From positions 1 to 40,115 of the IMG/VR virus record IMGVR_UViG_3300032235_000137: a stretch of DNA of 40,115 nt. One strand, written 5' to 3'. The notes under the pieces were generated by a model, which was not told the DNA's origin, searched no databases, and saw only the letters and a list, made by a program, of their open reading frames with translations. Every line of letters starts with the position of its first letter. Position 1 is the stretch's first letter. This DNA comes from a virus. A program made the translations under genes and the position numbers. Below are positions 1-12,171 of the stretch, one piece after another.

Positions 1-134
1 ACTGTACCCTTGGTTACATGGTGCGTATTAGGTAGGTACGGATTCCATTTAGTGCCGTGGATAAACTCCTCGGGGTGGCTGTCCATGCGCTCAAGCAACA
101 ACTTAATTTGGTCATGACAAAAGACTTTTAGCAT
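1..134 (-). CDS. Partial leftward gene, N-terminal 44 codons of an unknown phage protein
   Basis: The reverse strand is open from an ATG at 134-132 to the left edge, giving 44 codons beginning MLKVFCHDQIKLLLERMD; the rest lies outside the window. The ATG overlaps the end of the VRR-NUC gene by seven bases (ATGCTAA), the tight coupling seen throughout this arm, which supports it as a real downstream member of the same operon. The visible part has one predicted helix followed by a Trp/His/Pro-rich stretch with no motif I recognise. Function unknown; too little of the protein is present to assign a family. Confidence 0.6.
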   Translation of the reverse strand, partial: MLKVFCHDQIKLLLERMDSHPEEFIHGTKWNPYLPNTHHVTKGT

Positions 135-439
135 CGGTCATCGTCCTCAGTAGTCATCATCTGCTTTACAAAAATCTCAAGGGTTTTTTGGTTGTCTTCG
201 TTGATGACAAAGGTAACTCCACGAGCGTCATTGATGCGCTTGAGTTCACGGTCTTGAAGGGCTGTCGTCTTACCTTTGCCAGCCTTACATTCAATGGCTA
301 CAAAGAGTCCGTGCATACAGCAGATGATGTCAGGCACACCTGACCTTCCAAAGCCATGTGTGGCTGGGAAGAAGTGATACACATTGTATTTTTTCAGTAG
401 CTTAACCACTGAGGCTTTAACCTTGGCTTCGGGCGTCAT
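128..439 (-). CDS. VRR-NUC domain nuclease (Holliday-junction-resolvase-like)
   Basis: This 103-residue protein is essentially a single VRR-NUC domain, the small PD-(D/E)XK nuclease found in phages and as the catalytic part of FAN1. Visible signatures are the G34-V-P-D37 motif, E50-x-K52 (ECK) on the following strand and Q62 after a GKGKTTAL stretch, which together match the family's catalytic core. Phage stand-alone copies are thought to cut branched DNA during replication, recombination or packaging. It has its own promoter (473-500) about 27 nt upstream of the ATG and lies beyond a terminator (571-596), so it starts a separate transcription unit that continues off the left edge. The assignment rests on motif recognition. 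Confidence 0.85.
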   Translation of the reverse strand: MTPEAKVKASVVKLLKKYNVYHFFPATHGFGRSGVPDIICCMHGLFVAIECKAGKGKTTALQDRELKRINDARGVTFVINEDNQKTLEIFVKQMMTTEDDDRC

Positions 440-539: not shown

Positions 540-570
540 TTCACATTTCGAAGTTGTTTCGATTTGTGAA
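540..570. promoter_or_regulatory. 31-bp two-fold symmetric site, copy 1 of 6
   Basis: Two 13-base half-sites, TTCACATTTCGAA and TTCGATTTGTGAA, face each other across a 5-base spacer. This copy lies between the leftward terminator at 571-596 and the promoter at 473-500, unlike copies 2, 3, 5 and 6, which sit in leaders just upstream of start codons. The half-site consensus over all copies is TTCAC, three A/T bases, TCGAA. It is probably a protein-binding operator (inference). Confidence 0.75.
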
Positions 571-596
571 ATAAAAAAGCCACCCGAAGGTGGCTT
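571..596 (-). terminator. Intrinsic terminator of the left early operon
   Basis: Read leftward, an 8-bp stem (AAGCCACC/GGTGGCTT) with a four-base loop is followed by a run of six T. It ends transcripts arriving from the 743-9240 block. The 24 bases 573-596 are identical to 10353-10376, the terminator of the 10393-11058 gene, so the phage uses the same terminator twice. Confidence 0.85.
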
Positions 597-742
597 AGTG
601 TAGAGAAGGCAGATTACGCTTCTACTTGCGCTTTTGGAGATGCTCGGTTTCCCGACGCTGTAAGGCTACATCATGCTAGATAACCCCACAACATTGCATA
701 GTCATTGACCAATCAAGGTAGATCGAGTCAATAATTATTATA
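597..742 (-). other. Non-coding 3' region of the left operon
   Basis: I see no start-to-stop reading frame longer than about 20 codons here. The reverse strand holds a small stem TCGG-GAAA-CCGA with a GNRA-type loop near 640-655 and an imperfect GTAGAAG/CTTCTCTAC pairing before the terminator. The stretch may simply be a structured 3' untranslated end, or a decayed gene. No tRNA fold is evident. Confidence 0.4.
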
Positions 743-1654
743 TCAACTTTCTAATTGCATATCACCTGCGACGATGTAATACATATCCTCGGCAAACCTA
801 CACCCTAGGTGTGCATACGGCTCGTCGGCTGAAATAACTTTGAACATACCTAGCTTGCTCTGTATATCATCAGGCAACAAATCAAACGACGCATACTTCT
901 TGATAGTCCTGTCCACTAACCTGAGTACTACGAGCCCACCATTAGGATAGGACTTGACCGCATACCCTGCGTTGCTCTTTAGTTGTTCGTGTAGAAACGA
1001 TGCCGTAGTAAAGTGCTCACAGTTTTTATCGTGGTTCTTGGTATCTCTGACTGACTTGAGTACGCTTGGTACTGTAATCGTAGCTTCCCCCTTAAGCCGT
1101 GCCTGATACGCAAGCATAGCTAGGTTAAGCACCTCGTTGTTAGGGTCTGTCGAGTACTGTACATAGCTTCTAGACTGATTAACCAAAGAGGACAGGTGCG
1201 ACTCTACCTTATCCCACAGCAAGCGTTGCAGTTCATCGTCTGCCCTACTAACCAATACCTTCTTCACAGTACGCAGGGCTACCTTGAAGTTCTTAGTTAG
1301 CGTAGCTTCCCGATCACCTCGTTCTTTGTTAATACGGAACGAGTGCACACCATACACAATCTCCTTGTTGCCTTGATGGTATCGCTCAGCCATAGATATT
1401 GCGCCGAGTTCCTCACCCTCTTGGAACACCTTTATCTTGTAGATGGTCGTAGTGCGTGTCTGCTTAGCTACTGTCCTGCCATTCGCATCTGTTTCATCTT
1501 TGTAGCTGTACTCCGTTTTCAAGCAGTCGTCGTCAACCTTGAAGTTACACAAGGGCTTAAGCATAGATACCTCGTGAGCAAAGTCCTCTAACCCACCCCG
1601 CAAGGGGGCTTCACGCTTGTCTACATTTATTTCTGATCTGTCTAGCACTATCAT
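743..1654 (-). CDS. Conserved-looking phage protein of unknown function, 303 aa
   Basis: A 303-residue soluble protein, mixed alpha/beta by eye, with no signal peptide or membrane segment. The N-terminal third carries a charged stretch around YSYKDETDANG and a strand-rich segment (TTTIYKIKVFQEGEELGAI). The middle is basic and helical (NFKVALRTVKKVLVSRADDELQRLLW). The C-terminal part has a GYAVKSYPNGGLVVLRL segment. I do not recognise a family. It is the last gene before the operon terminator and overlaps the preceding exported protein by four bases (ATGA), implying coupled translation. A DNA- or RNA-related early role is possible from the basic middle but is not shown. Confidence 0.7.
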   Translation of the reverse strand: MIVLDRSEINVDKREAPLRGGLEDFAHEVSMLKPLCNFKVDDDCLKTEYSYKDETDANGRTVAKQTRTTTIYKIKVFQEGEELGAISMAERYHQGNKEIVYGVHSFRINKERGDREATLTKNFKVALRTVKKVLVSRADDELQRLLWDKVESHLSSLVNQSRSYVQYSTDPNNEVLNLAMLAYQARLKGEATITVPSVLKSVRDTKNHDKNCEHFTTASFLHEQLKSNAGYAVKSYPNGGLVVLRLVDRTIKKYASFDLLPDDIQSKLGMFKVISADEPYAHLGCRFAEDMYYIVAGDMQLES

Positions 1655-1971
1655 GTTCCGTACCTATTACCTTTCTTTTTAATTACTGTGAAGTTCTCGG
1701 CTGGGTAGCGCATACGCTTTGCCCCCGACGATGTAGCCCAAACTACCACTACCGTTTCGTCCTCAATAAAGAAGCACCCTTCACTGCTATATCCTGCCGT
1801 GGTGTAGTTGTAAGCCCTGCTTAACTCTTTGTATGTCTTGCCATCATGCTTGCACACCTCGTCAGTCAGCACGATCTTGCCACCGCCCTCGTTGGGCATT
1901 GTGGCTATCGCATCTGCAAAAGCTAAAGTCGGTAACATAAATGTTACTAATGCTATGTGTTTAAGTTTCAT
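1651..1971 (-). CDS. Small exported (periplasmic) protein with signal peptide
   Basis: The first 19 residues form a classic Sec signal peptide: a basic start (MKLK), a hydrophobic core (HIALVTFMLPTLAFA) and an AFA-D signal peptidase I site after A19. The mature part is about 87 residues, has two cysteines (C40, C66) that could form a disulfide in the periplasm, and ends with a basic tail. It sits inside the leftward early block with ATGA overlaps on both sides. Early phage proteins sent to the envelope often block superinfection or alter the host surface; that role is inference from location and topology only. No lipobox is present, so it is not a lipoprotein. Confidence 0.75.
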   Translation of the reverse strand: MKLKHIALVTFMLPTLAFADAIATMPNEGGGKIVLTDEVCKHDGKTYKELSRAYNYTTAGYSSEGCFFIEDETVVVVWATSSGAKRMRYPAENFTVIKKKGNRYGT

Positions 1972-2186
1972 TTCTCTTGTGCCTTTCTTAGTATTGCTCT
2001 AGCAAAACCCATCCAATTCAATAAACCCATGCTATGCCCTAAGTTTATTGTTGCCACTTCCATTATTTCCTCATCTGTTAGTTCTTTTACTGGATGGGTA
2101 TAGAGTGGAATAAAGTCAGGGCAGTAATTCTTCTGAACATAAAACTCTTTTCCATTTGACATCCAAGCTACTGGTTCATTGTTCAT
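1968..2186 (-). CDS. Small phage protein (VAWM...LYTHP...LTDEEI family)
   Basis: A 72-residue protein built from an N-terminal EPVAWM segment, a FIPLYTHP segment and a C-terminal helix beginning LTDEEI. This layout is widespread among hypothetical proteins of tailed phages of Proteobacteria, but I know of no assigned function. The start follows a strong AAGGGGG ribosome site. Its stop overlaps the next gene's start (ATGA). The C-terminal helix GLLNWMGFARAILRKAQEK is amphipathic. Confidence is high that it is a gene and low for any role. Confidence 0.75.
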   Translation of the reverse strand: MNNEPVAWMSNGKEFYVQKNYCPDFIPLYTHPVKELTDEEIMEVATINLGHSMGLLNWMGFARAILRKAQEK

Positions 2187-2195
2187 ACCACCCCC

Positions 2196-3065
2196 TTAGA
2201 AATTAAACTTGGACAAAATCGTATCGACCTTCATCTTAACTACCTCACGAGCATTGCTGTTATCACGCAAGCTATCAAGGCTGTGATGTGCGATGGCTAA
2301 CTCGAGTTCCCTGCGTGCCTGCTCAAGCGATGGGTCTTTGGTGATGTTAAGGTGCTTAAGCATATCCACTAACTCCACTCCATTCTCTACTAGGGAGTCA
2401 CGGAATATTTTTCGTGAGCCGTCAGCGTTGTCAGTAAGCCTTTCACTCATACGAGATAAGCAATCATGTAAGCGACTCCATGCCTCACGCATAGCGTTGT
2501 TCAGCCTGTCCTGATACGCAGAGTTGCAGTTCGCAATGATCTCGGCTTTGGCTTCTTCGTTAATGTCGATACGGAAATCACCTGCCGTTGGTACAGGGAA
2601 GAAACTATATGTGAACTTGAACTTCTTGCGTAGCGCATCTTCATGTGGATACTCGTTTCTGTCGAACAGGTTGCCCAGTTGGAACGCAGCAGCACTTACT
2701 AAGCTAGGATATGCCACGATAAACTTATCGACTAGGGCTTCGTAGTTGGTTTCGAGTTCACCGAGCTGCTGTTTGTAATTCATGAAGTTACTCATGGGTA
2801 GCAGTCGTGAGCCGTTGTCAGTCCAAGGCAAGGTCTGTGAGATGTGCCATGCTCTAGCATTAGCGGCATACTTCACGATGGTATCAAGCACCCCAGTACC
2901 AGCCATGAGGTTCTTGTTTGCATTGACCACCTTGGTCTTTGCGCCGTTATCTAAGTCGACCTGCGTAGATACACGCTTGTCTAGCTTGCGTGCAGTCCAT
3001 GTGCTGATGGACATTTCGACTAGCATTGCTGATGATGCGATTGAGATACTGTTACTTGTGTTCAT
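2196..3065 (-). CDS. DUF3150-like protein, partner of the MoxR/VWA pair
   Basis: From an ATG at 3065 preceded by AAGGAGAATCAC the product is 289 residues. An upstream in-frame start would run through palindromic site 2 and the end of the RHH gene and lacks a ribosome site. The N-terminus (LVEMSISTWTARKLDKRVS) and the later ARAWH...TLPW.D.GSRLLP and AYPSLV segments resemble DUF3150 proteins, which in integrative elements are encoded beside a MoxR ATPase and a VWA protein, as here. The C-terminal half is helical, probably coiled-coil. The role is unknown; a substrate adaptor for the ATPase is a reasonable guess. Family assignment is from memory of the pattern, not a search. Confidence 0.7.
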   Translation of the reverse strand: MNTSNSISIASSAMLVEMSISTWTARKLDKRVSTQVDLDNGAKTKVVNANKNLMAGTGVLDTIVKYAANARAWHISQTLPWTDNGSRLLPMSNFMNYKQQLGELETNYEALVDKFIVAYPSLVSAAAFQLGNLFDRNEYPHEDALRKKFKFTYSFFPVPTAGDFRIDINEEAKAEIIANCNSAYQDRLNNAMREAWSRLHDCLSRMSERLTDNADGSRKIFRDSLVENGVELVDMLKHLNITKDPSLEQARRELELAIAHHSLDSLRDNSNAREVVKMKVDTILSKFNF

Positions 3066-3083
3066 GTGATTCTCCTTGATTGG

Positions 3084-3114
3084 TTCACAAATCGAAATTA
3101 TTTCGAAATGTGAT
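3084..3114. promoter_or_regulatory. 31-bp two-fold symmetric site, copy 2 of 6
   Basis: TTCACAAATCGAA and TTCGAAATGTGAT across a 5-base spacer. It lies 19 to 49 bases upstream of the DUF3150-like start and overlaps the last codons and stop of the ribbon-helix-helix gene, so protein bound here could affect both genes. Confidence 0.75.
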
Positions 3115-3250
3115 GTTGGATTAAATGTTGTATTACTTGCGAATACGATGGTGTGAACCCCCATTCCTGGGCTAGCTTAACTTTCATCTCGGTAAGCTGA
3201 GCCATTGTCTCGGGGCGGATTGATACATTTACTTTATTTGGTGTTGCCAT
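3098..3250 (-). CDS. Ribbon-helix-helix DNA-binding miniprotein, 50 aa
   Basis: A short reading frame from ATG 3250 to TAA 3098 encodes 50 residues that read as an Arc/MetJ/CopG fold: a beta strand (NKVNVSIRP), a first helix (ETMAQLTEMKVKLAQEWG), the turn FTPSYSQV and a second helix (SQVIQHLIQHHISK). Such proteins dimerise and insert the paired strands into the major groove of palindromic operators. The gene starts one base after the stop of the 3252 gene, with a GGAG site in that gene's end, and its own 3' end contains symmetric site 2. I infer that it may be the regulator reading the six sites. A single strand residue pattern (V8, S10, R12) would face DNA. Confidence 0.75.
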   Translation of the reverse strand: MATPNKVNVSIRPETMAQLTEMKVKLAQEWGFTPSYSQVIQHLIQHHISK

Positions 3251-3251
3251 T

Positions 3252-3443
3252 TCATTTCTCCAAAAATTCAAGCCATTTAGTCATAACTTCTACATCTTCA
3301 AACTTAACTCCATTTAAAACTGGGCGTTCATAAAACCCAATGCGAATGATCTGATACCGATCACCTTTCTTGTGCGCCCTATGCTCAAACTTAACCCCCT
3401 CATCACGCTCATAATTCGCAATGATTTGGTCTAGTGCATCCAT
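3252..3443 (-). CDS. Small protein of unknown function, 63 aa
   Basis: A 63-residue acidic/basic mixed protein starting MDALDQIIANYERDEGVKF after a good AAGGAGTAGAG ribosome site. The centre (RYQIIRIGFYERPVLNG) predicts two strands and the end (VEVMTKWLEFLEK) a helix. It lies two bases from the preceding gene and one base before the RHH gene, so it is translated in the same cascade. I recognise no family. Its position beside the DUF3150-like and VWA genes makes it a possible accessory member of that set. Confidence 0.65.
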   Translation of the reverse strand: MDALDQIIANYERDEGVKFEHRAHKKGDRYQIIRIGFYERPVLNGVKFEDVEVMTKWLEFLEK

Positions 3444-3445
3444 CT

Positions 3446-3736
3446 CTACTCCTTATCTAAAAAGTTTAAGCCTTTGGCAACGCAATGTGCCTCATGCTTG
3501 GTTAAGTTATCTACTACTATCGGCTTACTTCTACTACTTAATTCGTTATACAAAAGTGGTGCGTTTAACTTAGCTACTGCCTTGTACTCGTAAATAACAT
3601 CTATACCCCAAGTATTTAGGTTGTAGTTTCCATACTTCTTTGCTACCTTAATCACGCACCAATCCTTGTAGTGGGACTTGTCGACCTTATTCTCCTCGGC
3701 TTTCTTAGCCCACCACGACTTCTTGTTACTCCACAT
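3446..3736 (-). CDS. Unknown 96-aa basic protein overlapping the VWA gene
   Basis: The start chosen is the ATG at 3736 (MWSNKKSWWAKKAEEN), 11 bases inside the end of the VWA gene; a longer frame to 3817 would be a 92-base overlap with a Ser/Pro/Leu-rich, unlikely leader. The N-terminus is Trp/Lys-rich; the rest (HYKDWCVIKVAKKYGNYNLNTWGIDVIYEYKAVAKLN) looks beta-rich, and the end HEAHCVAKGLNFLDKE helical. The last 30 residues, VDNLTKHEAHCVAKGLN, resemble small domains in which a helix follows an NLT strand in many phage hypothetical proteins. No function can be assigned; translational coupling to the VWA gene suggests a shared process. Confidence 0.65.
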   Translation of the reverse strand: MWSNKKSWWAKKAEENKVDKSHYKDWCVIKVAKKYGNYNLNTWGIDVIYEYKAVAKLNAPLLYNELSSRSKPIVVDNLTKHEAHCVAKGLNFLDKE

Positions 3737-4970
3737 GGACAGTCTTACCAATAGGGGCGACAAACCTACTATTGCCTTTGATGCACCACAGCACAGGGGC
3801 TTCGATGTTCCAGTCACTCACATTCTGATGCCCGATGTAGCCGTCACTCAGCATGAGCAAACACTCAGGCTTCATGTTGTGCTTGTTCATATACTTAGGC
3901 ACGCACGCTGGTTCAGTACCACCCCCACCCGCAGGCTTCGTGCTCTCCGTCAATCCTGCCAGCTCGTTCTCCGTATATGTTTCTCTAGCAGCCACATGGG
4001 TATCCCAATAAAGCAGGTCGATTACCTCGGGCGATACTTCCTCGCAGATGGACTTCACCTCGGATAGAAACTGACTTAGTTCCTCAGTACCGATCGAGCC
4101 TGATGTGTCGATAGCGATTGTGATACCACCTACCTTCTCAGAATACGATGAGGGCATGATGAGATCGGCCGCAAGATAACGCTTATGCAGTCTGCGCCAC
4201 GAGGACTGGTCTTTGCCTTGCGTCATGGACTTGACGAACTCACGCAGGGCTTCCTTCCAATCAATCTTCGGGGTTAGCATCTCGCTGATGTTGCGATCTA
4301 CATTGCCACCCATCTTACCTACGAGGATCGAACCTTGACGCAGGGCTTGCTCGATCTCCTTGCCAGCCGCTTCCTTCTCCTCTTGGGTTGCATCCCCAGC
4401 CCCTTCCCAATCATGCTCATCGAATGTGGGAATTCCCTCGCCATCATCGGGACCGTTCCCATCACTTGGTTCTCCAGCAACAAGAATAGTTTTGCCCTTG
4501 CCGTAGTCCTCGCCCTTCTCCTCGATTAGTTTAAGGAAAACTTCTTGCGAGTCCATGCCCCGATACTTCTCATCTAAGCACCCCATCGGTTTGCCTTCTG
4601 CGTTGGTGGGCATCTCGGTATCAATGTGGTTAGGGTCATAGTCATGGATTTGTAAGTTGATTACATAGTCGCATGCAATGTTCGCAAGAATAGGATTGCG
4701 CTTGTATAGCTTCTCCCATACCACTAGGTGACGATAAGCCTTGTGCATATTCTCATGCAAGATAAGAAAGGCTAGTTGCTTGTCGTTCAAACTCTGCACG
4801 AACTCACGACCATAGCTTACATCTAAGCCGTTGGTACGAGCCGTAGGTGTTGTGTCATCTACGCTAACCTTGCCAATCATGAACAGCCCCGAGAACAATG
4901 CAAAGTTCTTGTGCTTCATTAACTGCACATGGCAACGCTCGATGCGTTGTTCTGCTGATAACTTACTCAT
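3726..4970 (-). CDS. DUF2201-type metallopeptidase-like / VWA domain protein
   Basis: The 414-residue product has two domains. The N-terminal metallopeptidase-like half carries H72-E-N-M-H76, an HExxH zinc motif in a helix (LAFLILHENMHKAYRH). After an acidic linker (about 150-200) comes a C-terminal von Willebrand A domain with a complete MIDAS: D288-T-S290-G-S292, T352 in GGGGTE and D376 in LMLSDGY. This matches the DUF2201_N plus DUF2201 (VWA-like) architecture. Such proteins work with MoxR AAA+ ATPases in chaperone or metal-insertion-like remodelling. It shares one base with the upstream membrane-peptide gene (TAATG). Both the zinc motif and the MIDAS are intact, so the protein is probably functional. 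Its substrate in the infected cell is unknown. Confidence 0.88.
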   Translation of the reverse strand: MSKLSAEQRIERCHVQLMKHKNFALFSGLFMIGKVSVDDTTPTARTNGLDVSYGREFVQSLNDKQLAFLILHENMHKAYRHLVVWEKLYKRNPILANIACDYVINLQIHDYDPNHIDTEMPTNAEGKPMGCLDEKYRGMDSQEVFLKLIEEKGEDYGKGKTILVAGEPSDGNGPDDGEGIPTFDEHDWEGAGDATQEEKEAAGKEIEQALRQGSILVGKMGGNVDRNISEMLTPKIDWKEALREFVKSMTQGKDQSSWRRLHKRYLAADLIMPSSYSEKVGGITIAIDTSGSIGTEELSQFLSEVKSICEEVSPEVIDLLYWDTHVAARETYTENELAGLTESTKPAGGGGTEPACVPKYMNKHNMKPECLLMLSDGYIGHQNVSDWNIEAPVLWCIKGNSRFVAPIGKTVHVE

Positions 4971-5101
4971 TATCTACCCCCATTAAATACTTCAAACAAT
5001 TTAAGTCCAACCCAAAGGATTAGAACTATCCCACCTAAGAACAGCCCTAGGGCGATCAACCATGCACCTATGTCCGCCATTAACATGCCTAGTTCAAACA
5101 T
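4970..5101 (-). CDS. Single-span membrane miniprotein, 43 aa
   Basis: A short frame from ATG 5101 to TAA 4970 encodes 43 residues: a short N-terminus, a hydrophobic span of about 23 residues (IGAWLIALGLFLGGIVLILWVG), then KLFEVFNGGR. Its start overlaps the upstream gene by eight bases and its stop overlaps the VWA start in TAATG, so it is fully embedded in the coupled cascade between the MoxR and VWA genes. A second Met at residue 8 could also be the start. The charge distribution (acidic before, Lys after) suggests the C-terminus is in the cytoplasm. It could tether the ATPase/VWA machinery to the membrane; that is inference. Confidence 0.65.
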   Translation of the reverse strand: MFELGMLMADIGAWLIALGLFLGGIVLILWVGLKLFEVFNGGR

Positions 5102-5303
5102 GGCCTATGTCCTTCTCTATTAAGTCGATGTTGTTACCTACTGCGTTTAATATCTCAGCCTTGCTCATACCTTCTTTTCTAGCCGTTAGAATTAAACACA
5201 TACCCAGCGCCCCCATTGCAATGTTCGGTGGCACTTCTTCTTCCATGAACATGGTCATAACTCTTATTGCTAGATCTTGTACAGGGTGTAGTGGTTTTGA
5301 CAT
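5094..5303 (-). CDS. Small helical protein of unknown function, 69 aa
   Basis: The start at 5303 is chosen because AAGGAGAAACAA precedes MSKPLHPVQDL; an earlier in-frame ATG at 5336 lies within the end of the MoxR gene. The product is 69 residues, almost entirely helical: HPVQDLAIRVMTMFMEEE, then a moderately hydrophobic IAMGALGMCLILTA, then MSKAEILNAVGNNIDLIEKD. The middle hydrophobic stretch is short and may be a buried helix rather than a membrane span. It is located between the MoxR ATPase and the membrane miniprotein. I recognise no family. Confidence 0.7.
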   Translation of the reverse strand: MSKPLHPVQDLAIRVMTMFMEEEVPPNIAMGALGMCLILTARKEGMSKAEILNAVGNNIDLIEKDIGHV

Positions 5304-5313
5304 TTGTTTCTCC

Positions 5314-6408
5314 TTAAAATAAGTATTGGTTTTCACGCATCCAAGTAACGAATGACTGGCTAGTAAAGAATAGCTTTTTCTTCTCGTCGTCCTTCATACC
5401 AGTCAAGCAGAACACAGACTGCAACTCCTTGGGTGTGCGCTTGAGATACTCAAAGAACTTACCGATGCTTTCACGATCAATCTTCTGCACCGCAGAGAAC
5501 GCTAGCAAGCACAATGCGGCTGGGCTTGTCGGCACTACGGCTGTCGATGGGCTCTTGCAAATCTCCTCCCAAGTCGGAAGACTGTCGGCTACGGCAACAT
5601 ATGACATCAAGTCACGCGCTGCGGGCGCCCCAATCGTACCTTCTAGTGCACAAAGGGTTGCGTTCTCCGTTACCAGATGACGATTGTTAATAAGATGTGA
5701 TGCTCTAGCAAGGGAACGAGGCGAAACAAAAGACTTCTGCACTTCCTTTGGGTTGAAGATGTACTTGTTACCTGCCTGACTTGGCTCGAGGTACGACCCT
5801 AGGGTGTGTGGATTCTCCTTGACCCATGCAAGAATCTCAGGTGCAACTCCGTTACGCAATGCCCAGTAACCCCATGAGTCCTCATCAACCGAGCCATCTA
5901 CATTGAACCCAGCGTGTGGTTTCTTAATATTGATTACGCTCAAACGATTTCTTGAATGGCTCATCATATTGTCGCCCACTCCGTCGGTGGTGTAGTTACC
6001 AGCAGTAATCACAATGGTATCGGGATGCAGAGGGATACCCATGATCTGCCGTGGCTCGTTCAGCATGGGGTGTAGCATATTCTTAACTGACTGATGCCCC
6101 TTGGTGAACTCGTCGGCAAAGATAACGAGTGGCTCGTTCAGATGGAAACCCCATTGCTCGTTCGGATATATCTTGGTGGTCTTGGTTGTGTGGTCAGGAA
6201 TCGGAATACCCAGCTCGCCCAGTTCCACATTAGGCACATCGATATAGATACCCTTGAACCCTGTACGCTCTACGATATTCTTGAACATAGAAGTCTTGCC
6301 GACCCCAGGCTCACCCATGAGGTGAAAGGTTGAACCCGAGCCCATTGCGACAATCATGTCCTCAGCTTCTTTGAGGGTTGCATTACGGTTTAATAATACT
6401 TCTGACAT
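5314..6408 (-). CDS. MoxR-like AAA+ ATPase
   Basis: A 364-residue single-module AAA+ ATPase. The Walker A motif is G32-E-P-G-V-G-K-T (32-39), the Walker B LVIFADE ends at E100, sensor 1 is the Asn of TAGNYTT (about 138), and the segment DNMMSHSRNRL (146-156) supplies arginine-finger candidates; HPMLNE after Walker B is typical of the MoxR branch. MoxR proteins form hexamers that remodel protein targets together with VWA-domain partners, encoded here four genes downstream in the same operon along with a DUF3150-like protein. The start follows AAGGAGAATTAA, and symmetric site 3 lies just upstream, so this module may be regulated as a unit. The substrate is unknown. Confidence 0.88.
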   Translation of the reverse strand: MSEVLLNRNATLKEAEDMIVAMGSGSTFHLMGEPGVGKTSMFKNIVERTGFKGIYIDVPNVELGELGIPIPDHTTKTTKIYPNEQWGFHLNEPLVIFADEFTKGHQSVKNMLHPMLNEPRQIMGIPLHPDTIVITAGNYTTDGVGDNMMSHSRNRLSVINIKKPHAGFNVDGSVDEDSWGYWALRNGVAPEILAWVKENPHTLGSYLEPSQAGNKYIFNPKEVQKSFVSPRSLARASHLINNRHLVTENATLCALEGTIGAPAARDLMSYVAVADSLPTWEEICKSPSTAVVPTSPAALCLLAFSAVQKIDRESIGKFFEYLKRTPKELQSVFCLTGMKDDEKKKLFFTSQSFVTWMRENQYLF

Positions 6409-6433
6409 TTAATTCTCCTTGATTGGTTGTTGA

Positions 6434-6464
6434 TTCACTTATCGAAACCATTTCGATTTGTGAT
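6434..6464. promoter_or_regulatory. 31-bp two-fold symmetric site, copy 3 of 6
   Basis: TTCACTTATCGAA and TTCGATTTGTGAT across a 5-base spacer. It fills the gap between the end of the 6465 gene and the ribosome site of the MoxR ATPase. The A/T bases in the two arms do not pair (T opposite T), which favours a DNA-protein site over an RNA hairpin. Confidence 0.75.
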
Positions 6465-7415
6465 TTACTGCATGTACTTCTTGTTCTTATCGGGAAACGC
6501 ACACCCGATCGGATACTCCTCTTTCTCAAACACTACCTCGTGATGCTGATACTTGAGCATTTCTGTAAAGCCACGCTCGAACGCTTTGGGTGAACAGGAA
6601 TACGCTGAACTCTGATAGTCATATCCAGCAAAGGAAGCCCCAATAAACTGTGCTAGCTTATAGCTTAAGTCTAAGTCGTTAGTGTCCATAGCCTTCTGCA
6701 CATGACGGAAGAACAGTTCACGATTAGGCTTGGAATACTGACGACCATGCCAGCCTTGTGGTGTCAAGCACTTGCCTGCAAACCCAAGCGCCTCCCCCGT
6801 GTCCATAGTTATCCGACTGTCCATTGCCAGCATAGTGCGTGTGTAGTCCATGAACTCCTTGTAGTACTTACGCAACTTGTTCAGTTCCTTGCGCTTAGCC
6901 TTGTAGGTGTACTCCTGCACAGGGTTAGTCGGCCTCATGATGCCATTCTCACCAGCCACAAGTCGTAGCCCATGACGCTTGTCCTTCTCATACTCGGGTA
7001 GCACATACTCCTCGCCAGCCTTGTTCTTGAAGTACCACTTGCCATCATGTGATGCGATAGTCCCGTAGTTAGTCAAGCTATGCGTGATAAAGCCCATCGC
7101 CGTCGGTGTATGCCAGCTTGCATCTCTGATAACAACCGAGCCGTCTTTGAAGAACTCAACCATGTCGTTGCCCCACAGGTGGCAGGCATAAGACTTCTCA
7201 AGCCAACCAAGTGGCTGATCGTCTGACATATAGCAGTTGGTGTTCTCCTTGATCTCGAACCATGTGTAACGGCGGTTCTTACCCAAGGGCTTGCACTCCT
7301 TTGACCTGCCTTGGATAGGCTTAACGGACTTGAAGTGATCCCGCATAAACTCAAAACCCGTAATCGCTGGTATGCGTGCGGAGTTGTACATTCGTGTGTT
7401 ATATCCCCAACCCAT
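6465..7415 (-). CDS. Unknown 316-aa early protein
   Basis: A 316-residue protein starting MGWGYNTRMYNSARIPAI, rich in aromatic residues throughout (many W, Y, F) with an apparent beta-rich N-terminal half (RYTWFEIKENTNCYM, NDMVEFFKDGSVVIRD, THSLTNYGTIASHDGKWYFKN) and a helical C-terminal half beginning TYKAKRKELNKLRKYYKEFMDYTRTML. No transmembrane segment or signal peptide. I do not recognise the family. Its start shares one base with the stop of the upstream winged-helix-like gene (TAATG). Symmetric site 3 follows its stop. The beta-rich half recalls domains that bind nucleic acid or carbohydrate, but nothing specific supports either. Confidence 0.7.
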   Translation of the reverse strand: MGWGYNTRMYNSARIPAITGFEFMRDHFKSVKPIQGRSKECKPLGKNRRYTWFEIKENTNCYMSDDQPLGWLEKSYACHLWGNDMVEFFKDGSVVIRDASWHTPTAMGFITHSLTNYGTIASHDGKWYFKNKAGEEYVLPEYEKDKRHGLRLVAGENGIMRPTNPVQEYTYKAKRKELNKLRKYYKEFMDYTRTMLAMDSRITMDTGEALGFAGKCLTPQGWHGRQYSKPNRELFFRHVQKAMDTNDLDLSYKLAQFIGASFAGYDYQSSAYSCSPKAFERGFTEMLKYQHHEVVFEKEEYPIGCAFPDKNKKYMQ

Positions 7416-8125
7416 TATTTACTCCCGAATAGTTTGGACTCAAGATACTCAACCGTTGCCCGTAACTTAGTTACTTCTTCCATAACCTCGGTTACTTCGC
7501 TAGTTACATCACGGGTCTTGCGAGCTTTGGCTAGGGCATCACGCAGTTCAAGGATTTCATGCGCTTGTTTGCGTGATTCTGCCTGCCATTCGCTTATCCG
7601 TTTCTCGAGAAACGCAGCATAGTCCCCCTTGCTTGAGAGTGTTCCGAATGGGTTTGGGACTGGTTTGCCATCATTTATGCGAACACGGAGGGTTTGTTTG
7701 TCGGCGGATAATTTTGCGGTTACAGAAGATGACCGTTTTTCTACTTTTTTAGGCTGGGCATCGGGCTTGTAACCCTTGGCTTTAGCCTCGTCAGGTGTGT
7801 AGTAACGGGTGATACCTGAGTCCTTGTTGGTATATCTGACTAGCTTACCGATGTTCATGAGGCGACCTAGCTGCATATTAACTATCTTAATATTGTCTTC
7901 TCCACAATAGGTTGCGATTGCTTGGGGCGTACGCAGCCCACTACCCGTAACTGCACTCATGATGCGGTCTTGCAAGGGCTTGATGTGCTTGGGGTAGTTG
8001 ATAGCACGCTTGGGCTTTTCTTCACTAATCGAATTAGTTTCGATTTGTGGTTCTTGCAGGTTGTAGCCCGAGAGGTGGTTCTTGATCTGAAACTCTTTGA
8101 GTTTGTCGATTGCTTCTTGGTTCAT
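7415..8125 (-). CDS. Putative winged-helix DNA-binding protein with C-terminal coiled coil
   Basis: A 236-residue protein. Residues about 45-110 (IKPLQDRIMSAVTGSGLRTPQAIATYCG...NMQLGRLMNIGKLVRYTNKDSGITRYYTP) look like a winged-helix domain: a three-helix core followed by a beta wing. A basic linker (KPDAQPKKVEKRSSS) leads to a predicted coiled coil (about 170-232, WQAESRKQAHEILELRDALAKARK and EVMEEVTKLRATVEYLESKL) suited to dimerisation. The ATG at 8125 has the AATCAAGGAGAATTAC leader shared with two other genes in the arm. Symmetric site 4 lies inside its coding region, around codons 25-35. It is a candidate regulator or replication-associated DNA-binding protein. The fold is inferred from pattern, not from a search. 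Confidence 0.7.
   Translation of the reverse strand: MNQEAIDKLKEFQIKNHLSGYNLQEPQIETNSISEEKPKRAINYPKHIKPLQDRIMSAVTGSGLRTPQAIATYCGEDNIKIVNMQLGRLMNIGKLVRYTNKDSGITRYYTPDEAKAKGYKPDAQPKKVEKRSSSVTAKLSADKQTLRVRINDGKPVPNPFGTLSSKGDYAAFLEKRISEWQAESRKQAHEILELRDALAKARKTRDVTSEVTEVMEEVTKLRATVEYLESKLFGSK
8021..8051. promoter_or_regulatory. 31-bp two-fold symmetric site, copy 4 of 6 (intragenic)
   Basis: TTCACTAATCGAA and TTCGATTTGTGGT across a 5-base spacer. It is the most diverged copy and the only one inside a coding region, about 75 bases into the winged-helix-like gene. Coding constraint may explain the drift, or the site may act as a roadblock within the gene. Confidence 0.6.
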
Positions 8126-8139
8126 GTAATTCTCCTTGA

Positions 8140-8403
8140 TTAGTTAAATTGAACTGCTGTATCAAAAAATGTCGCTAGCAAATACAAGCTAGACAACAGT
8201 ACTGCCCACATCACACCCCATAAGAGGTATTCTTTTGCCCTGTCCCAGTCGGACTCGCACCGCCACATGGGTGTGGCATAGTCGGCATCACGCAGGGTAG
8301 GTTTCATCTTCTCCTTGTGCCACTCCATGAGGGCATCGCCACCCTCGTATGGTTTCTTTAGCCTTGTGATCGGCTTGCGTGGCGCTGGTTTAATCTTCTT
8401 CAT
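8140..8403 (-). CDS. Tail-anchored small membrane protein, 87 aa
   Basis: The start at 8403 (MKKIKPAPRKP) has an AAAGGAGAAATGTC ribosome site and overlaps the previous gene by 14 bases. A longer frame to 8472 would add an unlikely leader overlapping the neighbour further. The first 60 residues are basic and hydrophilic (PRKPITRLKKPYEGGD, EWHKEKMKPTLRDADYATPMWRCESDWDRAKEY). A single hydrophobic span follows (LLWGVMWAVLLSSLYLLATFF) with only DTAVQFN after it. The topology is therefore N-terminus in the cytoplasm, C-terminal anchor. It resembles no family I can name. An early inner-membrane protein might protect against superinfection or alter host transport; this is speculation. Confidence 0.7.
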   Translation of the reverse strand: MKKIKPAPRKPITRLKKPYEGGDALMEWHKEKMKPTLRDADYATPMWRCESDWDRAKEYLLWGVMWAVLLSSLYLLATFFDTAVQFN

Positions 8404-8614
8404 GACATTTCTCCTTTGCTTCTTTAAGTGTGCGTAGTGCTGTCCATACCAGCACCTTGCGGTGATCGGCAAATATGCCTTTGCCGTTGGCTTTCTCCAA
8501 ATCCAGAATGGCTGAGTTCACAGCATTCTCGAGAATAGAGTACTTATTAGGTGGCTCATAGGATGCGCTAGGTTCTAACAGCATTTCAAGCCACATCTTT
8601 TTCATATGTCCCAC
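8390..8614 (-). CDS. Unknown helical protein, 74 aa, likely GTG start
   Basis: The frame opens at a GTG (8614) in TTAGTGGGACATATG, six bases after a GGGGGG ribosome-like run; an ATG three codons later (8605) is the alternative. The product begins M/V-GHMKKMWLEMLLEPSASYEPP and continues with two predicted helices (YSILENAVNSAILDLEKANG and HRKVLVWTALRTLKEAKEKC). Its stop lies 14 bases inside the next gene, and its start overlaps the stop of the preceding one. I recognise no family. Small, charged helical proteins like this in early operons often target host proteins, but nothing here shows it. Confidence 0.6.
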   Translation of the reverse strand: MGHMKKMWLEMLLEPSASYEPPNKYSILENAVNSAILDLEKANGKGIFADHRKVLVWTALRTLKEAKEKCHEED

Positions 8615-8799
8615 TAATTCCCCCCTTGCAATGCAGTTAGCTTTGCTTTCATGATTGCCAGCGTTGCCTCGCCAGCTACCACTTGCTGAGCTTGTTCTGC
8701 GTTTTCGATAGTGTGTTTAGTCGCCTCGAGTATGTCCTGCAAGCGTGCAATGTCCTCAAGTAACTCGTCGATGCGCACTCCCTTGTAGTGGCTAGTCAT
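8614..8799 (-). CDS. Small coiled-coil protein, 61 aa
   Basis: The ATG at 8799 (MTSHYKGVRIDELLEDI) is preferred because TTTTGGAGAAAAGA sits just before it; the frame can be extended to a GTG at 8823 but that removes the ribosome site. The product is 61 residues, essentially one long amphipathic helix (DELLEDIARLQDILEATKHTIENAEQ) followed by a second (ATLAIMKAKLTALQG), probably an antiparallel hairpin or oligomeric coiled coil. It overlaps the preceding gene by eight bases. Function unknown. Confidence 0.6.
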   Translation of the reverse strand: MTSHYKGVRIDELLEDIARLQDILEATKHTIENAEQAQQVVAGEATLAIMKAKLTALQGGN

Positions 8800-8980
8800 T
8801 CTTTTCTCCAAAATATTTCCCACTAAATCCCGCTATAAACCCCTGCTCGAACGCATCTTTAGCTTTGACATTGTCCATGCCAGTCAGGTTGTAGCCCCAA
8901 ATGCTTTTCTTTTGGTACTTCTTCCACTCGTCGCCCATGATGCGTGTCATTGTTAGGTACTCCATCACTTCTTCGCTCAT
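8792..8980 (-). CDS. Small protein of unknown function, 62 aa
   Basis: The ATG at 8980 (MSEEVMEYLTMTRIMGDEW) follows an AGAGGACAAC ribosome site and overlaps the zinc-protein gene's stop (ATGA-type overlap at 8977-8980). A longer frame to 9310 would run over the zinc protein and the operator region and is rejected. The 62-residue product has an acidic helical start, a KKYQKKSIWGYN basic/aromatic centre, and ends AFEQGFIAGFSGKYFGEKND. The last part resembles the small glycine-containing helix hairpin (AF..GF.AG) seen in many phage hypothetical proteins. No function is assigned. Confidence 0.65.
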   Translation of the reverse strand: MSEEVMEYLTMTRIMGDEWKKYQKKSIWGYNLTGMDNVKAKDAFEQGFIAGFSGKYFGEKND

Positions 8981-9240
8981 GTTGTCCTCTTGGGGTTGGT
9001 TGTGCGCAGGTCTGCTGGGTTGTGGATGTACTGGTATGCACCCTTGGAGTAGGGAATCTGCACCATACTTGCTTTTCTCTTGCTTTCCTTGTGCGCCTCG
9101 GCATCGCCACATGGCATACACAACATACGCTTGCCTTGCGACCGCAACAAAGTAGCCCTGCCATCTGATATACGAAAGAACCCGCACTTGGAACAGATGT
9201 GCTGTGACAGGTCTAGCGTTTGGAATCTTGCTTGATACAT
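8977..9240 (-). CDS. Zinc-ribbon protein, first gene of the left operon
   Basis: An 87-residue protein with two CxxC pairs, C16-S-K-C19 and C41-M-P-C44, spaced as in a zinc ribbon; between them is a strand-rich segment (FFRISDGRATLLRSQGKRML). The tail is basic (AHKESKRKASMVQIPYSKG). It is the promoter-proximal gene of the left operon, starting at 9240 after AAGGAGATGTC with symmetric site 5 immediately upstream. First genes of phage early operons frequently encode host-takeover or transcription-modifying factors, and a zinc ribbon would fit binding to nucleic acid or RNA polymerase; that role is inference. Confidence 0.75.
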   Translation of the reverse strand: MYQARFQTLDLSQHICSKCGFFRISDGRATLLRSQGKRMLCMPCGDAEAHKESKRKASMVQIPYSKGAYQYIHNPADLRTTNPKRTT

Positions 9241-9257
9241 GACATCTCCTTGGTTGA

Positions 9258-9289
9258 TTCACAAATCGAATCGGGTATCGAAATGTGAA
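9258..9289. promoter_or_regulatory. Two-fold symmetric site, copy 5 of 6 (6-base spacer)
   Basis: TTCACAAATCGAA and ATCGAAATGTGAA across a 6-base spacer, 32 bp in all. It lies in the leader of the left operon, about 40-70 bases downstream of the expected start point of the promoter at 9337-9365 and just upstream of the first ribosome site. Confidence 0.75.
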
Positions 9290-9336
9290 GGTTGGTAAAA
9301 AATAAAACATGAATACGAATTCCCACTAACATATAT

Positions 9337-9365
9337 AGTATACCACAGTTTCCCACCAATGTCAA
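9337..9365 (-). promoter_or_regulatory. Near-consensus sigma70 promoter of the left operon
   Basis: Reading leftward, a perfect TTGACA (9365-9360) is followed after exactly 17 bases by TATACT (9342-9337). It would direct host RNA polymerase leftward into the zinc-ribbon gene and the long overlapping block, so this is likely an immediate-early promoter. The leader of about 90 nt contains symmetric site 5. Confidence 0.85.
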
Positions 9366-9381
9366 GTTTTTGTGAAGGGTA

Positions 9382-9410
9382 TTGCGACAATGAACAATTA
9401 GTACTATAAT
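9382..9410 (+). promoter_or_regulatory. Near-consensus sigma70 promoter of the rightward gene 9440
   Basis: TTGCGA (9382-9387), a 17-base spacer and a perfect TATAAT (9405-9410). Initiation near 9417 gives a 23-nt leader with a strong AAAAGGAGG site before the ATG at 9440. It is back to back with the leftward promoter; the two -35 boxes are 16 bases apart. Confidence 0.85.
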
Positions 9411-9439
9411 GTGATTTGAACAATTAAAAGGAGGTTGAG

Positions 9440-9955
9440 ATGGCTAGGTTTGACTTTGTTTATCTAACAATCAATGGCAAGAAAGGCACGCTTTCGTATT
9501 GGGCTAGGCATTACGATATTGACTACGCTACATTTCGCCAGCGGTATCGCAGGCACGGGGACAACTTAGCCAAGCTAACAGCTAAAACGATTAAGCAAAA
9601 AGGTTATGCACAGAAGAAATACAGAGTACTTAGAGCTTCCCCCGAAGATGAGCTGCCCGAGGTAAATTCGACTGGTTATGTAGATTGGTACTCATTGATA
9701 AAGAAAGATGGCAGAACACAGAGTATTAAAGAATGGTGTAAGGAGTTGAAACTATCTCTGCCAGCGGTAAGAAGAAGGATTGAACGAGGTGTGCGAGGTA
9801 CTGCGTTGTTAGATCCCGTGCGTGAGCATATATCACATAAGATGGGGATAAAAAATAGGTTAAGGCATGAAGCCCGAGTGCGTCTTGAACGAGAAAAGAA
9901 ACTAGAGGAAGCTGAGGGTTTGCAATGTTCTGAACGCCTGCGTGACATGTTCTGA
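9440..9955 (+). CDS. Putative DNA-binding protein with two related HTH-like repeats
   Basis: A 171-residue basic protein containing two similar segments: residues 11-40 (INGKKGTLSYWARHYDIDYA then TFRQRYRRHG) and 89-118 (KDGRTQSIKEWCKELKLSLP then AVRRRIERG). Each reads as a short strand followed by a helix-turn-helix in which the second helix carries several arginines, as in the DNA-binding repeats that accompany phage HNH enzymes, but no nuclease domain is present. The C-terminus is a charged helix (RHEARVRLEREKKLEEAEG). It is the only rightward gene in the switch region and is opposed to the left operon, a typical place for a lysis-decision or early-late regulator. Function inferred. Confidence 0.75.
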   Translation: MARFDFVYLTINGKKGTLSYWARHYDIDYATFRQRYRRHGDNLAKLTAKTIKQKGYAQKKYRVLRASPEDELPEVNSTGYVDWYSLIKKDGRTQSIKEWCKELKLSLPAVRRRIERGVRGTALLDPVREHISHKMGIKNRLRHEARVRLEREKKLEEAEGLQCSERLRDMF

Positions 9956-9962
9956 GGGAATG

Positions 9963-10015
9963 GAACAATATAAACCCTTATGGTATATAGATAAAAGGTA
10001 TATTGTTCTATTTTT
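9963..10015 (+). terminator. Hairpin with T-run after gene 9440
   Basis: GAACAATATA (9963-9972) is the exact inverse complement of TATATTGTTC (9999-10008), giving a 10-bp stem with a 26-base loop. TATTTTT follows. The stem is A/T-rich and the loop large, so it may be a weak terminator or a stabilising 3' hairpin. Confidence 0.5.
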
Positions 10016-10144
10016 AGAATAGTTTTAAGATTTAATGAACGGGATTTAAAAAAGGGTAGCGTGAGCCTGCACTATGCGAAGGGGGTCTTGCGATCCTGCA
10101 AAAATAAAAAATGCTTAAGTAATTCCCAAAACTATTGTAAAAAT

Positions 10145-10198
10145 AGAACAAAGCTCGCAAAGTCAAGCCCAGTAAGGCTTTGAGCGTTCTGTTTTTTT
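10145..10198 (+). terminator. Bulged stem-loop with T7 tail, terminator or small-RNA 3' end
   Basis: The right arm GGCTTTGAGCGTTCT (10176-10190) can pair with AGAAC, GCTC, AAAG and CC on the left, leaving three bulges on the left strand only. G and seven T (10192-10198) follow. A rightward transcript would end here. The one-sided bulges are unusual for a simple terminator. Confidence 0.5.
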
Positions 10199-10275
10199 GG
10201 AACATGTCACGCAGACGATCTAGAACGGGGCTAATGCGTTGTTACAAGATGACCGTTCTTTAATAAAATAAGTGC

Positions 10276-10318
10276 TTGACAGGCAAAAACATATAGTGTA
10301 TTCTCTGATATCAGAGAA
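10276..10318 (+). promoter_or_regulatory. Promoter overlapped by a perfect 18-bp palindromic operator
   Basis: TTGACA (10276-10281), 17 bases, TATTCT (10299-10304). The perfect palindrome TTCTCTGATATCAGAGAA (10301-10318) covers the end of the -10 box and the start point, the classic place for a repressor. Rightward transcription would run antisense to the 10393-11058 gene. No sense gene lies downstream. Confidence 0.5.
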
Positions 10319-10349
10319 CGACGCAAACGAATTTAGCAAAATGAAGGCG

Positions 10350-10376
10350 AAAAAAAAAGCCACCCGAAGGTGGCTT
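10350..10376 (-). terminator. Intrinsic terminator of gene 10393-11058
   Basis: Leftward, AAGCCACC/GGTGGCTT with a four-base loop is followed by nine T. It begins 17 bases past the stop of the gene. The sequence 10353-10376 is identical to 573-596. Confidence 0.88.
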
Positions 10377-10392
10377 GGTTGTACAGAATGGA

Positions 10393-11058
10393 TTAGATAG
10401 ATACAGGCAACATCGCCTGTATTTTCTTGAGTACGGAAACATCGCCGACTAACTTAATACGCTTGGCAATATCCGCACGCAATTCTTTAACAATGGCTTC
10501 TTGATCTTTGCCCGCCAATTTCTCACGGCGAGTAATCTCATCGCGAACCTCGATAGCCTTCTTGAACTCATCGTTCGCCTTGAAAGCGGCGAGGGCTTCG
10601 CGCAATTCAGAATCCACCATCTTGCCCAGTTTCTCAGCAGTAGCAGAGCGGGACTTGGACATCGACTGAGCCGAGGCCGACTTGGACTTAGGCTTCTCGA
10701 GCCCAGTTTCTTTAGTCATACGCTTGACCAGATCTTCCCACTTTTTCTGCGCCGATTCTTCGTTTGCTTGTTTTTGCATCGACATAATCAGCTTGATAAA
10801 GCTAGCCCGATAAGCCATGTAAGCAATATAAGTCGGTTCAGTCCCGAGCAACTTAGCCAGCGCTTTACCGCAGGTCGAGAGCAATACATCACCTTCAAAC
10901 AGCAGATTCTCGGACTCCAAGAACTTCTCAGCAATCTGAGATAGATCGCCGTACTGAGTACTAGACAATACAAACTCAGCCTTGGGCGCTTCGACCATCT
11001 GAACTACAACACCCTCAAAAGGGTTTACTGGGTTTACTGCATTAGCTTTAGTAGCCAT
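10393..11058 (-). CDS. Unknown 221-aa early protein with its own operator and terminator
   Basis: The ATG at 11058 (MATKANAVNPVNPFEG) is chosen because GGAGATGTTAATC precedes it; upstream ATGs lack a ribosome site. The product has a helical N-terminal part (EFVLSSTQYGDLSQIAEKFL, PTYIAYMAYRASFIKLIMSMQKQ), a Ser/Lys-rich linker (KPKSKSASAQSMSKSRSA) and a charged helical end (SELREALAAFKANDEFKKAIEVRDEIT). No membrane segment. I recognise no family; the basic linker between two helical parts would fit a nucleic-acid-associated or scaffolding role. It stands alone as a leftward unit with symmetric site 6 in its leader and a private terminator, so it is probably regulated with the left operon but made in its own amount. 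Confidence 0.75.
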   Translation of the reverse strand: MATKANAVNPVNPFEGVVVQMVEAPKAEFVLSSTQYGDLSQIAEKFLESENLLFEGDVLLSTCGKALAKLLGTEPTYIAYMAYRASFIKLIMSMQKQANEESAQKKWEDLVKRMTKETGLEKPKSKSASAQSMSKSRSATAEKLGKMVDSELREALAAFKANDEFKKAIEVRDEITRREKLAGKDQEAIVKELRADIAKRIKLVGDVSVLKKIQAMLPVSI

Positions 11059-11086
11059 GATTAACATCTCCATGTTGCAGGTTAGA

Positions 11087-11117
11087 TTCACATATCGAAC
11101 CATTTTCGATTTGTGAA
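11087..11117. promoter_or_regulatory. 31-bp two-fold symmetric site, copy 6 of 6
   Basis: TTCACATATCGAA and TTCGATTTGTGAA across a 5-base spacer, the most symmetric copy (one mismatch between arms). It lies 29-59 bases upstream of the ATG at 11058. An A/T-rich TACTATATACATATG stretch (11157-11143 leftward) may be the -10 region of its promoter, but no convincing -35 is visible. Confidence 0.8.
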
Positions 11118-11487: not shown

Positions 11488-12171
11488 ATGGAATATAAAA
11501 CATCACAGATAGAGGCACTGCGGGCGGGGGAGTCTAGGTATATAGGTCGCCCTTGCAAATATGGGCATGGCACACTTAGACATACAAAAACATGGGATTG
11601 CATGGTGTGCAGAAAAACTAGGAATAAAAAACTAGCTCAAGCAGCTAAGAAAAAAGCTAGGGAGATTAAAAGGGCACTAATTCCCCCACACCCAACACCA
11701 AGAGCAGATGCGCTAGCTAAAGGAGAAGCTACATATATAGGTAGCCCCTGCAATTATGGGCATGGCACACTTAAGTTCACGGCTACATATTCTTGTGTAG
11801 AGTGTTCTAAACTACGTACGGCTAAGACTAATGAAGTAGTAAAAATAGCCCGCGCTGCTAGAGGACACAAAAAACCTGGACGTAAGCCAAAGCATGCACC
11901 AGTAGAAGGTTTTAGTAGTAAGCAGTTAAAAAGATTGAGGCGCAAAACCGCACAGAAAGAGCGCACTCCAGTATGGCTAACTAAAGACGATAAGTGGATG
12001 ATCCGAGAAGCCTATGCATTGGCAGCGCTTAGAACAAAGTTATTTGGGTTTCCGTGGGAAGTTGACCACATTATCCCTTTGCGTGGCGAGTATGTATCAG
12101 GCTTACATGTGCCCCTAAACCTACAGGTAATACCTAAAGAAACTAACCGCAAAAAAGGAAGTAGTTTTTAA
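11488..12171 (+). CDS. HNH endonuclease with duplicated zinc-binding repeats
   Basis: A 227-residue protein. Two copies of a C-x3-H...C-x2-C module occur at the front: C23, H27, C38, C41 and C88, H92, C103, C106, each beginning YIG.PC.YGHGTL. A basic linker (GHKKPGRKPKHAP) leads to a C-terminal HNH domain with D193-H194 (EVDHIIPL), a central N211 (LHVPLNLQV) and N220. HNH enzymes next to terminase genes can be needed for cos cleavage with the large terminase; others are homing endonucleases. The position just before the terminase genes fits the first, the flanking ACCCCACCCCCC repeats and private promoter fit the second. The start is leaderless. The two zinc repeats are also nearly identical as DNA, showing a recent duplication. 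Confidence 0.88.
   Translation: MEYKTSQIEALRAGESRYIGRPCKYGHGTLRHTKTWDCMVCRKTRNKKLAQAAKKKAREIKRALIPPHPTPRADALAKGEATYIGSPCNYGHGTLKFTATYSCVECSKLRTAKTNEVVKIARAARGHKKPGRKPKHAPVEGFSSKQLKRLRRKTAQKERTPVWLTKDDKWMIREAYALAALRTKLFGFPWEVDHIIPLRGEYVSGLHVPLNLQVIPKETNRKKGSSF
11539..11575 (+). repeat. Internal direct repeat in the HNH gene, copy 1
   Basis: This stretch and 11735-11771 share almost the same DNA, including ATATAGGT followed by the block ATGGGCATGGCACACTTA. It encodes the YIG.PC.YGHGTL zinc module. The DNA-level identity points to a recent in-frame duplication. Confidence 0.7.
11735..11771 (+). repeat. Internal direct repeat in the HNH gene, copy 2
   Basis: Second copy of the zinc-module repeat, differing from the copy at 11539-11575 in only a few bases. 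The two are 196 bases apart. Confidence 0.7.

Follow-up and report, generated by a model that had tools for sequence, protein, structure and literature searches.

The closest known system to the sites described here, in both layout and lineage-specific spelling, is that of the extended start-associated sequences (ESAS) of Cluster K mycobacteriophages. ESAS are long, imperfect inverted repeats whose spacer varies, found in several copies upstream of start codons at a subset of non-structural-arm genes; they are kept with the same gene families and have a subcluster-specific half-site consensus, and the reports that describe them do not establish what they do or what reads them (PMC3203893; PMC11373665). 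A second system is provided by the stoperators of Cluster A mycobacteriophages, 13-bp asymmetric, oriented sites of the temperate-phage immunity repressor (PMC9283540), which are present many times over in the short gaps within transcribed regions and whose genome-specific motif diverges with its repressor, a monomeric two-domain protein (PMC6550527; PMC9283540). In prophage SPbeta, SPBRE is a 15-bp motif repeated in the promoter regions of many genes under one master regulator, MrpR, which has a tyrosine-recombinase fold (PMC10516654).

Here we describe a freshwater bacteriophage group in which one long mirror-image DNA site is present in 4-11 copies before early genes. The window, the whole stretch of DNA that was analysed, is a virus record of 40,115 bases and probably a fragment. 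Like ESAS, its sites are imperfect inverted repeats with a variable spacer that lie upstream of start codons and have a lineage-specific consensus. However, ESAS arms measure 17 bp and are tied to the 13-bp SAS, whereas the arms here are 11-13 bp with no conserved box beside the site; SigA-like promoters lie inside the repeat in Adephagia, whereas here promoters are outside or absent; and the ESAS phages are temperate. The initial annotation had likened the sites to stoperators. The likeness holds for the layout, a repeated site at transcribed and mostly promoter-free positions with a genome-specific spelling, but membership does not follow: in nearly all lineages the sites are 29-32-bp dyads, the candidate protein is unrelated to the Cluster A repressor, and no integrase was found. 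SPBRE resembles the present sites as a repeated element at many genes under one regulator, but differs in layout, and no match to Phage_integrase (PF00589) was found here. More broadly, integrase, serine recombinase (resolvase), ParA and ParB gave no match in the contigs searched, two of which are complete genomes, and a scan of 84,980 species genomes returned no prophage relatives. These phages are likely lytic, although other lysogeny functions may be present. Named phages share the ATPase or DUF3150 gene with the group only distantly.

All six copies reported by the initial annotation were recovered at their positions (Table 1). Measured against TTCACnnnTCGAA, the spelling of the window, eight of the 12 half-sites are exact, three have one mismatch and one (8039-8051) has two; the halves are separated by 5 bp, or by 6 bp at site 5. 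The five sites with a 5-bp spacer were found at ≤3 mismatches, against 0.00 expected from 100 dinucleotide-preserving shuffles, and no copy occurs at 12-40 kb (≤3 mismatches), in line with the claim that the structural arm is free of them. The proposed placement of the copies was also borne out, with four upstream of start codons on the sense (minus) strand, one between an intrinsic terminator and a promoter, and one intragenic as the ORF is called. In this last case, the orthologous gene of several relatives starts 21-27 nt past the site, and thus the start codon in the window may be miscalled.

Table 1. Dyad sites and neighbouring genes of the window
Feature	Position	Strand	Remarks
Dyad site 1	540..570	−	Right after intrinsic terminator; 5' of the TTGCAA-16-TATACT promoter of the VRR_NUC-like gene
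Dyad site 2	3084..3114	−	18 nt 5' of DUF3150-like gene (start 3065); overlaps 3' end of RHH gene
Dyad site 3	6434..6464	−	25 nt 5' of AAA ATPase gene (start 6408)
Dyad site 4	8021..8051	−	Within called ORF 7415-8125
Dyad site 5	9258..9289	−	6-bp spacer; 17 nt 5' of small Cys-rich gene 8977-9240
Dyad site 6	11087..11117	−	28 nt 5' of gene of cl16 (start 11058), the candidate reader; autoregulatory position
VRR_NUC-like endonuclease gene (cl5)	128..439	−	Downstream of site 1 and promoter
DUF3150-like gene (cl3)	2196..3065	−	Under site 2; weak Pfam match, relative annotated DUF3150
Small ribbon-helix-helix-like protein (RHH)	3098..3250	−	Assigned by sequence; no Pfam match
DUF2201 metallopeptidase/VWA-like gene	3726..4970	−	Same operon as ATPase; Pfam
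AAA ATPase (cl0)	5314..6408	−	Under site 3; used as anchor
cl16, 221-aa orphan all-helical protein	10393..11058	−	Candidate DNA-binding partner of the sites, from universality and covariation

To gather relatives, the ATPase under site 3 served as query against a viral collection and yielded 45 loci; the comparison of spellings took in about 28 contigs, and more were found later. Nearly all relatives have a dyad of the same build, in other letters, before the ATPase start, and this orthologue of site 3 is present in every relative with coverage except the far outgroup (L049 and L050). Site 2 has an orthologue in nearly all relatives, and the terminator, site and promoter arrangement of site 1 recurs in nearly all relatives that have the region. 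Each genome carries its own repeated dyad, with 4-11 copies in most contigs and 2-3 in short fragments, compared to 0-1 in Markov and reversed controls. In five relatives of 55-67 kb, two of which are complete with end repeats present (66,656 and 63,498 bp), there are 9-10 well-scored sites each, all within about -5.2 to +5.1 kb of the ATPase start. Thus, the confinement to the early arm holds in complete relatives too, over ~10.5 kb of early genes.

The letters of the site differ between lineages, while all copies within one genome agree. We distinguish at least 12 lineage-specific spellings, each common to all copies of its genome: GGACAnnCTTAG, GGACAnnGTGTCA, GGACAnnGTTAC, GGACAnnnTGACA, GGACAnnnCGGA, ACTTnGCGACA, GCACAnnTCAAG, RAACAnnnCGACA, the spelling of the window given above, GAACnnTCTAAC, CACCnnCTGACA and CACAnTCnGACA. 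More distant contigs have further spellings; for these, contigs lacking cl16 served as background for the family score (scores of 1-3 for most), since a dyad remains a dyad on reversal and reversed sequences are thus no valid control. The distance between the outer edges is mostly 28-32 bp; the ACTT lineage has 25 bp plus flanks. The places of the sites are conserved, before cl16, a cl16 paralogue, cl19, cl42 or cl10, cl0 (the ATPase), cl29, cl3 (DUF3150-like) and cl5 (VRR_NUC), while the site sequence itself diverges: in genomes that differ in spelling, orthologous sites have 38-69% identity, and most have diverged more than at least one flank. For example, at the ATPase site of G007 and G004 the flanks are 85% and 79% identical and the site 56%. 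Since all copies in a genome share one lineage-specific spelling, comparison of the sequences indicates that the sites evolve in concert with a trans-acting reader.

The reader would most simply be a homodimer of one phage-encoded, sequence-specific protein that binds the dyads as double-stranded DNA. Each half-site of 11-13 bp would then be bipartite, with an outer box (often GGACA-like), a weakly specified gap of 2-3 bp and a lineage-specific inner box. Our best candidate for this protein is cl16, which we judge slightly more probable than not. It is encoded in all 20 of the genomes whose upstream region is covered, and its gene, the first of the early module or one of the first, also lies under a site. 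Among the families tested it has the highest same-motif similarity score (0.97, which the very fast change of the family could inflate), followed by RHH (0.95), a virion protein (0.94) and cl1 (0.83). In relative G002, where the ATPase and terminase score 0.94 and 0.96 against the window, the sites and cl16 are both of the GTGTCA type, with cl16 scoring 0.10 to the window and 0.80 to the GTGTCA type. Only one other viral contig, L005, contains the site type of the window in an exact copy; it encodes a cl16 that is 93% identical to that of the window, with the site just upstream. Among distant contigs, cl16 occurs in 19/19 having the site family versus 2/18 without sites (weak matches), a co-occurrence that represents 1-2 independent events on the tree. 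When motif class was counted by parsimony on gene trees, cl16 did not stand out from the genes around it. Searches of PHROGs, PDB sequences and annotated phages returned no homologue, and the window protein has no Pfam match. Two AlphaFold models are all-helical (mean pLDDT 86); fold searches with them gave no match above the level usual for helical proteins, barely covered the C-terminal part, and revealed no recognisable DNA-binding fold.

It is unlikely that the sites are instead read by another protein, such as the ribbon-helix-helix protein encoded beside site 2, cl1 or an unseen factor. Both RHH and cl1 do track the motif in G002, and the RHH gene occurs only in site-bearing genomes. However, it is absent from some of these, including large contigs of several spellings, which rules it out as a universal reader, and the strand predicted to face the DNA hardly differs between spellings. 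In addition, G001, which has the spelling of G003 and G006, has cl1 and RHH proteins closer to those of the window.

Where the sites lie relative to genes and promoters suggests how a bound protein might act. Most end 15-40 nt before a start codon, in leaders or gaps between genes and mostly without an overlying promoter. At the cl16-paralogue and cl19 sites there is often a near-consensus TTGACA-17-TATACT promoter whose -10 box is about 36-51 nt before the site, which places the site in the leader. At the cl0, cl3, cl29 and cl42 sites, promoter scores are on average no better than those of shuffles. With promoters either outside or lacking, many sites lie in transcribed DNA without promoter overlap. 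Based upon this arrangement, we propose that bound cl16, the candidate reader, would obstruct RNA polymerase in leaders and between genes, so that the accumulating protein lowers or shuts off early transcription, its own included. If the specificity of the reader shifted, by mutation or gene exchange, all sites of the genome would follow, giving rise to many lineage spellings. Silencing of early genes by such a roadblock is a tentative reading, to which we assign less than an even chance. At cl5 the site is upstream of the promoter rather than in the leader, and a single roadblock role would there need a function in backing up the terminator. For the explanation as a whole, one phage protein acting on the dyads, this protein being cl16, and a barrier to transcription, we consider the chances about even.

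A conventional alternative is that the sites are operators or activator sites through which the protein controls initiation at nearby promoters rather than elongation. Near-consensus sigma70-like promoters near many of the cl16-paralogue, cl19 and cl5 sites speak for such control. Yet the site falls at about +26 to +70 at the cl16 paralogue and cl19 and at about -90 to -60 at cl5, and promoter scores at cl0, cl3, cl29 and cl42 are on average not above shuffles, which together exclude a common promoter-operator geometry for most sites. An alignment on the dyad edges, in which no column outside the dyad is conserved, also counts against such control. We therefore regard control of initiation as improbable.

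The sites could also act in RNA, as an mRNA hairpin with an internal loop by the ribosome binding site that is bound by a protein or acts on translation. The short distance to start codons would suit this, and the arms do covary in a stem-like manner across relatives: when one orthologous site is aligned across genomes, 8/11 pairs change on both sides. Within genomes, no such covariation was detected. In 185 sites, deviations from the lineage consensus at the fixed arm columns are one-sided in 122 cases and compensated in 1, where 8.1 compensated changes are expected under independence, and wobble pairs show no strand preference (19 sense, 22 antisense). The initial annotation had suggested that half-sites rather than an RNA stem are under selection, and these counts agree, pointing to half-sites in DNA; its proviso that compensatory arm changes in relatives would indicate a hairpin fared less simply, since relatives show many such changes from one genome to another but none inside a genome. 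The between-genome test misfires because each lineage rewrites both arms of all copies together. On the within-genome counts we reject the RNA stem as a paired element, and the cl5 site, which precedes its own promoter in nearly all relatives that have the region, further argues against RNA-level control, which we consider quite improbable overall. Thus, concerted evolution of a DNA site can produce covariation across genomes that mimics an RNA stem, and comparing copies inside each genome separates the two.

The central columns of the halves behave differently from what had been claimed. The A/T triplets of the two arms, said to vary independently, are in fact anti-matched over the clade: relative to a shuffle of half-sites that preserves their side, the free central columns of distinct sites have 371 mismatches between halves versus 316 ± 8. 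Pairing is thus rarer than chance, which again disfavours an RNA stem, and perfect symmetry is avoided, perhaps because a perfect hairpin before the ribosome binding site would be harmful. The mismatches are mostly A opposite A on the sense strand (A.A in 103 sites, T.T in 37, with reversals between orthologues). A symmetric reader does not account for this excess, nor would a fully symmetric DNA site be expected to show it; the A.A mismatches are a point in favour of action at the RNA level.

That the dyads serve partition, replication or packaging instead of gene regulation is very improbable: scattered dyads bound by ParB-type proteins are found with KorB and in plasmid-like phages, but neither ParA nor ParB was matched in the contigs searched (for ParB family PF02195, 7 contigs, including the two complete genomes), and the strict placing before start codons would be left without a reason. 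N4-like hairpin promoters found no support: the 2074-aa virion protein gave no polymerase match; a search with PF00940 (single-subunit RNA polymerase) gave no match, and its control was silent as well.

Returning to cl16 as the reader, it may represent an undescribed all-helical phage DNA-binding family that controls early genes through bipartite dyads in apparently strictly lytic phages, with fast turnover of specificity and half-sites selected to differ; this fuller picture is possible but doubtful as a whole. If it is true, the sites are mutually foreign even between relatives whose ATPases are 80-90% identical, which would amount to a heteroimmunity-like diversification in phages that do not lysogenise. 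The matched site spellings and candidate readers, at least 12 in related genomes, form a natural series for direct tests of how a regulator changes specificity jointly with all its sites, in a protein family that has no convincing fold match.

Several other genes of the window merit comment. The DUF2201 metallopeptidase/VWA-like gene carries the PHROG label 'HNH endonuclease' (phrog_1314), probably a misannotation given its Pfam assignment. Between sites 5 and 6 there is an HNH-type endonuclease-like gene at 9440-9955 (+), encoded on the other strand from the early genes. An Endonuclease VII/HNH-like gene at 11488-12171 (+) also runs against the early direction; it looks like a mobile insertion, since the surrounding DNA continues without it in L005. 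The small Cys-rich protein under site 5 has the C-terminal peptide KRKASMVQIPYSKGAYQYIHNP...TNPKRTT, which is nearly identical in some relatives of different site spelling. The short protein encoded at 1968-2186 (−) belongs to a family that is multi-copy in some relatives (LTDEEI...FARAILRKAQE), and its DNA gives the sole near match to a named phage record (MW202753). Finally, a small early-arm protein encoded at 1651-1971 (−) has a signal-peptide-like N-terminus.
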